In this document: one piece after another, positions 7,846 to 23,260 of the stretch | How positions within the stretch are numbered: the stretch's first letter is position 1 | How the letters are laid out: each line of letters starts with the position of its first letter | NCBI GenBank assembly: GCA_902794825.1 | Contig: CADBIU010000056.1 | Coordinates: forward strand, 1 to 46,700 | DNA from: an uncultured Lachnospiraceae bacterium | GTDB taxonomy: Bacteria; Bacillota; Clostridia; Lachnospirales; Lachnospiraceae | Direction: 5' to 3' | Length of the DNA: 46,700 nt | Made by a program: the position numbers and the translations under genes | The notes under the pieces: generated by a model | Database searches by the model: none | Told to the model about the DNA's origin: nothing | What the model saw: the letters and a program-made list of their open reading frames with translations, nothing else

Positions 7846-7906
7846 TGGGGCTGTCGCATAAGCGTAAAGGTAACAAAACTACGCTTGGCGGCATGTCCCT
7901 TTTAAA
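7846..7906 (+). terminator. asnS terminator, overlapping a structured repeat
   Basis: GGGGC-T-GTCGC (from about 7846) can pair with GCGGC-AT-GTCCC (7888-7899), and GCGTA pairs with TACGC inside; TTTT follows. The 3' side of this stem is also the left outer arm of the structured repeat starting at 7888, so the two folds exclude each other. Confidence 0.6.
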
Positions 7907-8118
7907 TTACATTGAATTCGCGGGGATTCACACAGATTCTTCGTTTCGCTTCGGAGGGAACCGCATTTCTAAACTCGACGTCCGCTCCGATGACCGGACG
8001 TCTCAAACAGATAGGCTTTCGTGATGCAGGAGCTGCATCACTCATTCCCTCCTACGCTTCATTCAGAATCTGGTTCATCCAACCGCTTATTCAAAGTAAT
8101 TTAAAAGGGACATGCCGC
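7888..8118 (+). repeat. Structured ~230-bp repeat, copy A
   Basis: The outer arms are perfectly complementary over 21 bases (7888-7908 with 8098-8118). The interior matches copies B, C and D in order: GAATTCGCGGGG, a CAGATTC/GAATCTG helix, a GGAGGGAA/TTCCCTCC helix, a GACGTCCG/CGGACGTC hairpin and a GTGATGCAG/CTGCATCAC hairpin. Helix sequences differ between copies but stay paired, as expected of a conserved RNA or single-stranded DNA fold. No protein is encoded. Copy A lies after asnS. Confidence 0.85.
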
Positions 8119-8292
8119 ACACGCTCAGGCTATTCCTCACGCAGATTGTATCACCCGATTACTAACTCTTTTGCAGCTCGTTTGACAAACTGTTATAAAC
8201 CTGTTTTTTCTACCTGGGAGTGTTTTTAGGTGCATATCTGCATCTTCGATTACAGGGAGTCGCCCATTTGGCGTCAGGATCAACCTTAGCGG

Positions 8293-8524
8293 ATGCGACA
8301 CGCCCCTTATTTATTGCTTTGAATAAGCGGCTGGATGAACCTGATCCTTCCGGAGCGGAGGAGGGAATGAGGGATGCATTCTGCAGCCTGAAAGCACACT
8401 TGTCTGAGACGTCCGGTCATCAGAGCGGACGTCGAGTTTGGGGATGCGGTTCCCTCCGAAGCGAAGGAAAGGATTAGTGTGAATCCCCGCGAATTCAATG
8501 TAATAAATAAGGGGCGTGTCGCAT
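8293..8524 (-). repeat. Structured ~230-bp repeat, copy B (opposite orientation to A)
   Basis: The arms match perfectly over 23 bases (8293-8315 with 8502-8524) but their sequence, ATGCGACACGCCCCTTATTT, differs from copy A. Read on the minus strand it has the same interior landmarks as A, with the GACGTCCG/CGGACGTC hairpin closest in sequence. The 174 bases between A and B hold only a weak TTGACA at 8182 and no recognisable gene or riboswitch. The guaA ribosome site begins 56 bases after the right arm. Confidence 0.85.
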
Positions 8525-8591
8525 AAGCGCAGGGTTATTAATTCCTTTCGCTAAATGTGTAATCATGCAGTAACTCATAAAAGGAGGGAAT

Positions 8592-10148
8592 ATGGAGAAA
8601 GAACTGATCATCGTTCTGGATTTTGGCGGCCAGTACAAGCAGCTGATCGCGAGAAGAGTCAGGGAGTGCAATGTATACTGCGAGATTCATCCCTATACCA
8701 AGACGCCGGGGGAGATCCTGGCGATGCATCCCAAGGGAATCATTCTCACAGGAGGCCCTAACAGCGTCTATGCAGAGGATTCACCGACCTGCGACAGGGC
8801 CCTTTTCGGATTGGGAATCCCGGTACTGGGCATCTGCTATGGTTCGCAGCTCATGGCGCATAAGCTTGGCGGCGCTGTGAAGACGGCGCCTGTCAGCGAA
8901 TACGGACATACCAAAATAGAGCTGGACGGCGTGGAAAGCGGCTCTAAACTGTTCAAAGGGATTTCTACTGCGGAGAATACCTGCTGGATGAGCCATACAG
9001 ATTATATCGCAAATCCCCCCGGAGGATTTAAGATCACTGCCCACACAGAAAACTGCCCTGTGGCCGCGATGGAAAACTCCGGCAGCAGGCTCTACGCAGT
9101 TCAGTTCCATCCGGAAGTGGTGCACACGCCCTTTGGCACGCAGCTTCTGCGCAACTTTGTGATGGACGTTTGCGGCTGCACCGGAAGCTGGAAAATGTCC
9201 TCCTATGTGGAGACAACTGTGAAGGAACTGCGGGAGAAGATCGGAGACGGCAAGGTCCTTCTGGGACTCTCCGGAGGCGTGGATTCCTCTGTGGCGGCAG
9301 CTTTGCTTTCCAAGGCTGTCGGAAAGCAGCTCACCTGTGTATTCGTGGACCACGGTCTTCTTCGAAAAGACGAAGGGGATGAAGTGGAAGCGGTATTCGG
9401 TCCCGAAGGTCCTTTTGAACTGAACTTCGTCAGAGTTAACGCGCAGGACAGATTTTATATCAAACTTGCGGGAATCACAGACCCCGAGATGAAGAGAAAG
9501 ATCATCGGCGCGGAGTTTATCAATGTATTTGAAGAAGAAGCTAAGAGGATTGGAGAAGTGGATTTCCTGGCACAGGGAACCATCTATCCGGATGTTGTGG
9601 AGAGCGGCACCGGAAACGGAGGAGCTGTGATCAAGTCTCACCACAACGTCGGCGGACTGCCGGAGCATGTGGACTTCAAGGAGATCGTAGAGCCCCTCAG
9701 GATGCTCTTCAAGGATGAAGTCAGGCAGACCGGACTGGAACTGGGGCTTCCCAGGAATCTTGTATTCCGGCAGCCTTTCCCGGGCCCCGGCCTTGGCGTC
9801 AGGATCGTCGGCGATATCACCGCCGAGAAGGTTCGGATCGTACAGGAAGCGGACGCGATCTTCCGTGAGGAGCTGGAAAAGGGCGGCATTGATACCGGGA
9901 AGGGACAATTTTTTGCCGCGCTTACCAATATGAGGTCGGTGGGCGTCATGGGCGACGGAAGAACTTACGACTATGCCGTTGCTCTGCGAGGCGTACTGAC
10001 AAGCGACTTCATGACAGCGGAGGCAGCTGAAATTCCGTGGAATGTGCTGCAGATCTGCATGACCAGGATTATCAATGAAGTCAAGGGCGTCAACCGCGTG
10101 CTCTATGACCTGACGAGCAAGCCGCCGGGTACGATCGAACTTGAGTGA
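8592..10148 (+). CDS. guaA: GMP synthase (glutamine-hydrolysing)
   Basis: A 518-residue enzyme converting XMP to GMP with glutamine and ATP. The N-terminal class I glutamine amidotransferase domain has the nucleophile Cys82 in [15 protein letters not shown] and the His-Glu pair in VQFHPEV. The ATP pyrophosphatase domain has the P-loop [15 protein letters not shown] near residue 225. The C-terminal dimerisation domain ends with the family's [15 protein letters not shown] tail. AAAGGAGGG at about 8580-8588 precedes ATG 8592. It is flanked upstream by structured repeat B; I saw no purine riboswitch. Confidence 0.96.
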
Positions 10149-10190
10149 TATAAAGGGGCTTGCCACGATGCATTGGGAGGTTATATAAGG

Positions 10191-22637: not shown

Positions 22638-22873
22638 GGGATGATGGGCCCGGAAGTAAGACGTTGAATTCGCGAAGTTTTTCTATGATCTTTCTGTCGT
22701 TCGTGAGAGGGACCGCTCGGGAACTCGGCGTCTGCTTCCGATGAACAGACGCCTCAGACATTGCCGGCTTTCGGTCGGCAGGAGCTGCCTCCCTCACCCT
22801 CTCACTCACTTCCTTACAGATCATGAAAAACTAATCGCTCATTCAAAGCCTTACTTCCGGGCCCATCATGCCC
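22638..22873 (+). repeat. Structured ~230-bp repeat, copy D (divergent)
   Basis: The outer arms are perfect over 20 bases (22641-22660, ATGATGGGCCCGGAAGTAAG, with 22850-22869) and share no sequence with the arms of A, B or C. The interior order is kept: TTGAATTCGCG, GTTTTTC..GATCT paired with AGATCATGAAAAAC, GTGAGAGGG/CCCTCTCAC, the GGCGTCTG/CAGACGCC hairpin, GGCTTTCGG, a GGCAG/CTGCC hairpin, and CATTCAAAGC. This is the most informative copy for compensatory change. It starts 11 bases after the SRAP stop. Confidence 0.82.
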
Positions 22874-22888
22874 TCAAAAAAACTTATC

Positions 22889-22916
22889 ACTGCCGCTCTT
22901 TAGGAGCGGCAGTTTC
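22889..22916 (+). terminator. Terminator
   Basis: ACTGCCGCTC-TTTA-GAGCGGCAGT (one extra G in the loop side) followed by TTTCT. It ends the GNAT-to-SRAP transcript after repeat D. Confidence 0.75.
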
Positions 22917-22937
22917 TATATCTTCTCGTCATATAAG

Positions 22938-22970
22938 AGATCCGGACTCGCAGAGCCCGGATCTTGTATT
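22938..22970 (+). terminator. Second terminator-like hairpin
   Basis: AGATCCGG (22938-22945) pairs with CCGGATCT (22957-22964), loop ACTCGCAGAGC, then TGTATTTG. It may back up the preceding terminator. Confidence 0.5.
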
Positions 22971-23027
22971 TGTTGGGATTATGACAATGTGTCTTGTATA
23001 TTTGCGATAAAGAGTTACCTGAGCGAC

Positions 23028-23260
23028 TGTGGCATGCCCCTTTTAAATTGCTTTGAATGAGCGGCTGGATGAACCAGATCCTTCCGGAGCGGAGGAGGGA
23101 ATGAGGGCTGCAGCTTCCTGCAGCCCGAAAGCACACTTGTCTGAGACGTCCGATCAGCGGAGCGGACGTCGAGTTTGGGGATGCGGTTCCCTACGCAGCG
23201 AAGAGAAGGATCTGTGTGAATCCCCGCGAATTCAATGTAATTTAAAAGGGGCATGCCGCA
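23028..23260 (-). repeat. Structured ~230-bp repeat, copy C
   Basis: Same orientation as copy B. The arms are perfect over 19 bases (23031-23049 with 23239-23257; GGCATGCCCCTTTTAAATT) and extend three more pairs if one G-T is allowed. Compared with copy A, the arm change TGTCCC to TGCCCC is matched by GGGACA to GGGGCA on the other side. The interior hairpin GGGCTGCAG/CTGCAGCCC replaces A's GTGATGCAG/CTGCATCAC. It lies 146 bases before the PadR gene start. Confidence 0.85.

Follow-up and report, generated by a model that had tools for sequence, protein, structure and literature searches.

What kind of element is present four times in one stretch of a gut bacterial genome, with ends that differ from copy to copy but still pair within each copy? 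The stretch (hereafter the window) comprises positions 1-46,700 of contig CADBIU010000056.1 from an uncultured Lachnospiraceae bacterium, and is contig C56 of a 2.74-Mb genome in 127 contigs (84.6% complete, labelled G000). An earlier note, made from the letters of the window, described four copies of about 230 bp, here called modules A, B, D and C, and proposed that selection acts on their RNA or single-stranded DNA structure. The comparisons below lead us to read the copies, with some reservation, as probably being non-autonomous elements of the IS1182 type, that is, relatives of an insertion sequence (IS) family, with giant structured ends.

A branched fold with variable arms

All four copies lie where the earlier note had placed them and adopt one branched structure of about 230 nt. 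In the sense in which that note read them (the reader's strand), A and D read + and B and C read -, an arrangement it had not recorded. On the reader's strand, copy A folds at -118.5 kcal/mol (z -14.4) and copy D at -123.6 kcal/mol (z -12.2), and none of 200 shuffles of either was as good; RNAalifold on the four window copies gave 71 pairs, 25 of which change on both sides in at least one copy. Long arms form the outer part of each module; it further has internal loops in which one strand carries tandem G.A, and a three-way branch bearing two small hairpins. The most constant core of the family on its structured strand is TGTCTGAG-hairpin-CGAGTT.

Compensatory base changes went far beyond chance in a larger set. 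Among 57 copies from 14 genomes, aligned to a covariance model and so leaning towards that model, 90.5% of 2,994 cells were paired, compared with 66.0% in shuffles that do not keep the relatedness among copies; changes on both sides filled 723 cells (199.9 in the same shuffles) and were present in 51 of 54 pairs. When partners were slid by 1-3 columns, 37.2-45.9% of cells paired. Unpaired columns were not, overall, more conserved than paired ones (0.88 vs 0.90 bits). The outer arms, which lie outside the covariance model, were scored separately in 55 copies (two of the 57 were too near contig ends): complementarity averaged 37.2 within a copy and 11.8 between copies, and a copy's own partner ranked first in 45 cases and among the top three in all 55. 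The claims that the arms differ among copies yet pair internally, and that a fold is under selection, are thus borne out. We caution against the interpretation that multi-copy covarying folds are necessarily RNA genes: helix covariation is expected of a structured RNA gene, and DNA palindromes would show the same.

A family confined so far to its own clade

Searches of Lachnospiraceae genomes and Rfam had been proposed in the earlier note, which did not recognise the family. A covariance model built from eight copies of the genome itself (R1) returned 12 matches there, nine above 140 bits and three partial or weak, and at least eight further full-length copies exist. R1 matched 19 of 61 genomes (own included), all of them among 37 of the same genus; none of 24 genomes from other families matched. 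Rfam gave no match in the window, and none at E ≤ 1 in 7840-8590. In wider searches, which scored few candidates per genome (8, 6 and 51) and may miss distant members, R1 matched only the own genome and G149 among 299 family genomes, and only the own genome among 392 of the order, while a second model, R2, with only 17 pairs found and carrying no argument, matched only the own genome among 60 family genomes. The G149 match lies on a 3.5-kb contig of a metagenome-assembled genome, possibly misbinned. A core pattern, run over named GTDB contigs in a scan that may leave out own-genome records, found 45 stretches, 44 titled Lachnospiraceae and one Clostridia, with a ruminant host named in 14 titles. 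The family has so far been seen in its own clade alone, a gut Lachnospiraceae group.

With 20 opposite-strand shadows discounted, R1 gave 136 rows on fetched loci and 115 distinct sequences. These 115 natural copies, with highly variable arms and a constant branched core, form a data set on which it can be asked which stem-loop features matter. Literature searches on such elements met no earlier description, and the large covarying Y-shaped module together with its strict inverted pairing looks new.

Inverted pairs that appear to be mobile

Distinct copies less than 1.2 kb apart formed 22 pairs, all inverted and all the same way; a 23rd close pair was dropped as an overlapping partial match. 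The 22 differ in sequence but cannot all be counted as independent: D-C, G012:C1 and G024:C14 represent the same unit, and so do G026:C101 and G010:C104, in that case inverted. Gaps between the paired model matches were 110-845 nt. The D-spacer-C unit recurs in G012 and G024 at about 80% identity, and the genes flanking it in the window were not found in those loci, which makes three unrelated sites. The A-B unit, in turn, is absent from the asnS-guaA junction in all four relatives in which both flanks aligned (G012, G032, G023 and G006). The G012 unit is likewise absent from the corresponding junction of its own site in G032 and G024, where an R1 search of the empty loci found no module; in G023 other sequence stands between the flanks, and the right flank falls outside the G000 locus. 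Because one unit occupies three unrelated sites and units are missing at orthologous ones, the pairs appear, as far as such comparisons can tell, to be mobile units.

In the four relatives lacking A-B, a short inverted repeat occupies the asnS-guaA junction (for example GAGACAGGAGCGGGAGCTCCTGTCTC in G012), and none lies next to the unit in G000. The presence of a unit at a position taken by a plain hairpin in relatives is suggestive of replacement of one stem-loop by another. The same observation would fit a bidirectional terminator or insulator carried by mobile elements and selected for stopping transcription, as would the hairpins with T runs that lie in spacers, at the outer edge and immediately ahead of the start of the transposase in the IS described below, and the orientation of the neighbour on the reader's 5' side, which in 65 of 102 cases points toward the copy. 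We consider this very improbable, because a simple hairpin would suffice and the branched core, strand-specific loops and pair orientation would be left unexplained; moreover, a scan of 7800-8640 listed no terminator-like site.

Inverted doublets with a spacer, forming an extragenic mobile unit with predicted folding as single-stranded DNA or mRNA, are reported for REPINs, built from repetitive extragenic palindromic (REP) sequences (PMC3116915). Our units are likewise inverted extragenic doublets, none of the 115 copies lying inside an open reading frame (ORF) over 300 aa. They could accordingly be imagined as giant REPINs, imperfect palindrome pairs that a HUH (Y1) transposase would mobilise as single-stranded DNA, with one strand marked by mismatches; REP-like repeats edge copies in two species, and Y1_Tnp occurs in 17 of 19 carrier and 9 of 18 non-carrier genomes (p 0.013, in a test chosen after seeing the data). 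We nevertheless rate this improbable. REP units measure 20-40 bp, and the ~230-nt modules are ten times that size, branched and tied to a DDE-type rather than a tyrosine transposase. No gene for a REP-associated tyrosine transposase was noticed among 118 flanking proteins scanned (25 commonest families listed), and no Y1 gene was seen beside a module when contigs were compared by eye; the two share only contigs G000:C31, G009:C23 and G035:C11, kilobases apart save for an IS200-like insertion beside copy E. The link to IS1182 explains more.

The module as a probable IS1182 left end

Four sequences (L014, L113, L064 and L061) share a AAGGGGCTGTCGCAT start, behind which come the module (part-deleted in L113), a hairpin resembling a terminator and the beginning of a transposase gene; beyond this they diverge or reach contig ends. 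L144, probably the same contig as L118, holds a whole IS with left end, module, transposase and right-end hairpin. Its transposase is 86% identical to a 540-aa frame in L180 that scores 354 bits on the NCBIfam IS1182 model NF033551 (cut-off 270), and L120 supplies a further module-linked transposase (83% identity over 489 aa). In a second lineage, L072, a D-type module lies behind a GGGGCTGTCGC hairpin and on its other side directly adjoins part of a different IS1182-type transposase, which shares 46% identity with that of the first lineage over 134 aa. Because the module sits between terminal hairpin and transposase in two lineages this far apart, we conclude from its position that it is the left-end region of IS1182-family insertion sequences. 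Of 97 modules, 14 have an IS1182-type end motif to the reader's 5' side and one has it to the 3' side (0.3 expected in shuffles). In pair L145 it stands outermost on both members, so that both edges of the unit are bounded; in the window it marks one edge (A) of A-B and none was recognised on D-C.

Miniature inverted-repeat transposable elements (MITEs) are small, gene-free and dispersed, with IS-linked inverted ends. The window elements share all of this, and presence or absence between relatives besides; unlike MITEs, they lack same-sequence terminal inverted repeats, since the D and C edges of one unit differ and arms differ between copies, and the fold is kept instead. The earlier note took such differing ends to speak against a plain MITE. 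That does not follow, because IS1272, cited in PMC5678879 as belonging to the IS1182 family, reportedly recognises stem-loops by structure: in each of the three new insertions described there, an inverted repeat at the target was replaced with no target duplication, and the targets were alike in structure without a common sequence. DNA transposition guided by structure rather than sequence has already been proposed for IS1272. Our elements resemble it in the IS1182-family transposase and the end hairpins, and may do so in inserting at an inverted repeat of relatives, with no target duplication recognised; they differ in the ~230-nt branched covarying module after the left-end hairpin and in that most copies have no transposase. 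A match to an IS-derived MITE whose transposase explains the ends, which the earlier note had named as evidence against its view, is largely what the IS1182 left-end module provides.

Two further IS1182-type remnants were seen. A broken transposase of the family lies at 2776-4287 of the window in two pieces (93 and 138 bits on NF033551), 33% identical to the module-linked one, and in L016 (G000:C98, 1130-1320) a truncated module adjoins a fragment of an IS1182-type transposase and its right-end hairpin.

The structured strand and the case for an RNA

The fold of the earlier note stands, although its choice of strand does not: under RNA parameters, 56 of 57 copies fold more stably as the complement of the reader's strand (by 12.7 kcal/mol on average), and under DNA parameters 54 of 57 do. 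Where the reader's strand shows a C.T or A.C mismatch, the complement has G.A or G.T, and tandem GA/GA loops are frequent there (read by eye: TGAG/CGAA, ATGAAC/GTGAAT, CTGAG/CGAGT). These loops, the constant TGTCTGAG/CGAGTT core and the strand preference would be expected of a new structured non-coding RNA, the complement of each copy being transcribed as a Y-shaped RNA of ~230-330 nt. Two such RNAs would diverge from the spacer in each pair, and within the IS the RNA would run away from the transposase gene, possibly regulating it; if true, this would be a new multi-copy RNA family.

G.U and A.C cells were counted with MAFFT plus RNAalifold for the element and 6S RNA alike. In two subsets, G.U exceeded A.C on the complement (29:9 and 34:3) and not on the reader's strand (13:19 and 7:10), as the RNA interpretation would have it, but all 57 copies on the reader's strand gave 63:21, which speaks against a clean asymmetry. 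A lack of G.U preference, suggested by a first count on the reader's strand (G.U 42, A.C 44), was revised by the complement-strand subsets. The element had 34 G.U and 7 A.C beside 1,197 Watson-Crick cells on the complement, compared with 132 and 9 beside 770 in 6S RNA from the clade and order (28 of 30 listed matches entered, 5 skipped at contig ends, 23 left). Folding is likely strand-specific, with G.U rare for an RNA. Promoters showed no excess beside 97 of the 115 copies (p 0.50 vs shuffles), and no neighbouring gene is shared. Of the earlier proposal, then, selection on the fold holds, and its RNA branch, although G.U exceeds A.C mainly on the complement, we consider unlikely.

A consensus-like promoter, TTGATA-17-TATAAT, does read toward the module from within the L014 transposase gene, in keeping with an RNA. 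The 5' part of that gene in L014 and L144 carries TTGATA-17 nt-TATAAT in antisense and a hairpin near the start codon (L144 read by eye), a possible antisense promoter resembling that of RNA-OUT. IS10 has this regulatory RNA next to its transposase gene. ISPpu9 is reported to have another, Asr9 (PMC8450116). The module resembles both in being structured sequence upstream of a transposase with a possible antisense transcript; unlike them, it is not known to be transcribed, and it multiplies without the gene.

A proposed mechanism and the points against it

From what can be read directly in the sequences, namely the fold, its covariation and strand asymmetry, pair orientation, presence or absence of units, the left-end-to-transposase position in two IS lineages and the edges of L145, we propose the following. 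Each copy would be a large structured IS1182 left-end module, mostly living without a transposase gene, and two inverted modules 0.11-0.85 kb apart would make up one non-autonomous unit that amounts to a left-end/left-end MITE. An IS1182-type transposase would move these units in trans by recognising the shape of extruded stem-loops, and the unit would replace a target stem-loop such as a terminator. Recognition by shape would let arm sequence drift while complementarity stays. Such stem-loop replacement would explain the varying yet pairing arms, the inverted pairs as two left ends and the placement where terminators lie. What we infer is the action of the transposase on the modules, DNA rather than RNA as their working form, and a single enzyme for most lineages.

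Because the acting enzyme is inferred in this way, a recognisable IS1182-type end nearby is missing for 83 of 97 modules and the modules greatly exceed IS1272's repeats in size, we hold the IS1182 reading as somewhat probable and no more. Several other observations weigh against it. Apart from the distant transposase of the window itself, matches to the enzyme occurred in only 6 of the 108 sources that carry modules, the IS1182 association being found for the L144, L120, L113 and L072 lineages only, and some lineages (UBA3863, UBA3692) are edged by REP-like GGGGACGGTTC instead of IS1182-type ends. Single modules are also common: a partner motif search of untested sensitivity found an inverted partner for one of 43 single rows, and a same-orientation motif 1.1 kb away in two of them (one copy seen twice). 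Movement itself was not observed. At asnS-guaA, the right border of the putative stem-loop replacement is not exact to the base, and where the unit stands in G012 a terminator persists next to it. Copy G was rejected as a clean single-copy empty site: it is absent in G012 and G032 but one arm remains there, so deletion is as likely as insertion. Finally, strand asymmetry would be superfluous under a double-stranded cruciform model.

The closest kinds of element are MITEs, REPINs and structure-targeting IS ends. Retrons, integron attC sites, IS110 bridge RNAs and group II introns were considered as further candidates and set aside, no search aimed at them having been made. Parvovirus-type terminal hairpins are Y/T-shaped, and offer an analogy only: they too are branched palindromes that contain mismatch bubbles and stand in inverted orientation at the two ends; unlike them, the present elements are bacterial and have no replication gene. 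More broadly, shape rather than sequence might define a class of selfish elements to which the modules belong: hairpins that branch three ways, have tandem-G.A loops and freely rewritable arms, are kept as inverted pairs and serve as the common structured end of several IS lineages; the arms would be rewritable because an enzyme (or an RNA function) reads the fold. This generalization is tentative and, to our minds, rather doubtful.

Surroundings of the modules and other repeats

In the window, asnS and guaA flank A and B; the genes on either side of D and C are an SRAP-domain gene and one that is PadR-like (Table 1).

Table 1. Parts of the two paired units in the window.
Feature	Position	Strand	Remarks
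A-B unit, two inverted modules and spacer	7841..8582	.	absent at orthologous asnS-guaA junction of G012, G032, G023, G006
IS1182-type left-end hairpin (GGGGCTGTCGCAT...CGGCATGTCCC), outer edge of module A	7847..7899	+	second arm of hairpin doubles as outer arm of A
Module A	7888..8118	structured strand -, reader read +	fold, model match, covariation, strand stability
A-B spacer	8119..8292	.	
Module B	8293..8524	structured strand +	model match, covariation, strand stability
D-C unit	22638..23270	.	full-length homology to units at unrelated sites in G012 and G024
Module D, arms unlike A-C	22638..22873	structured strand -	fold, model match, covariation, strand stability
Terminator-like hairpin, D-C spacer	22889..22913	.	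scored on both strands
Module C	23028..23260	structured strand +	model match, covariation, strand stability
Most constant core of module C, TGTCTGAG-hairpin-CGAGTTT	23138..23176	+ (structured strand)	

A fixed partner gene was sought among flanking ORFs and rejected: in 118 of 121 picked ORFs (three long ones left out), the scan gave 129 Pfam families, and among the 25 commonest, which were listed, the top ones had two proteins each. A phage or plasmid origin was likewise set aside, copy C being unmatched in phages and plasmids and one core pattern unmatched in viral_contigs.

Other repeats were noticed along the way. The D-C site in G012 has left-end-like sequence with an array of ~60-bp repeats as its core, and tandem arrays of ~60-bp repeats also lie inside the module pair of L084 (268-1112) and in place of the module core in L192 (about 940-1500). 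Two near-perfect palindromes of 51-54 bp (GGGGTAGTTTGTCCACA...), REP- or MITE-like, stand at 44342-44396 and 46505-46558 of the window, and the outer arms of copy L096:1962-2145 resemble the GGGGTAGT palindrome, which the window carries at 44.3 and 46.5 kb. At 34106-34455 there is a tandem array of 70-bp repeats, every one of which contains an inverted repeat (GTGCCC...GGGCAC), and the two ends of the contig (93-219 and 46574-46700) form a 127-nt inverted repeat that is 97% complementary.
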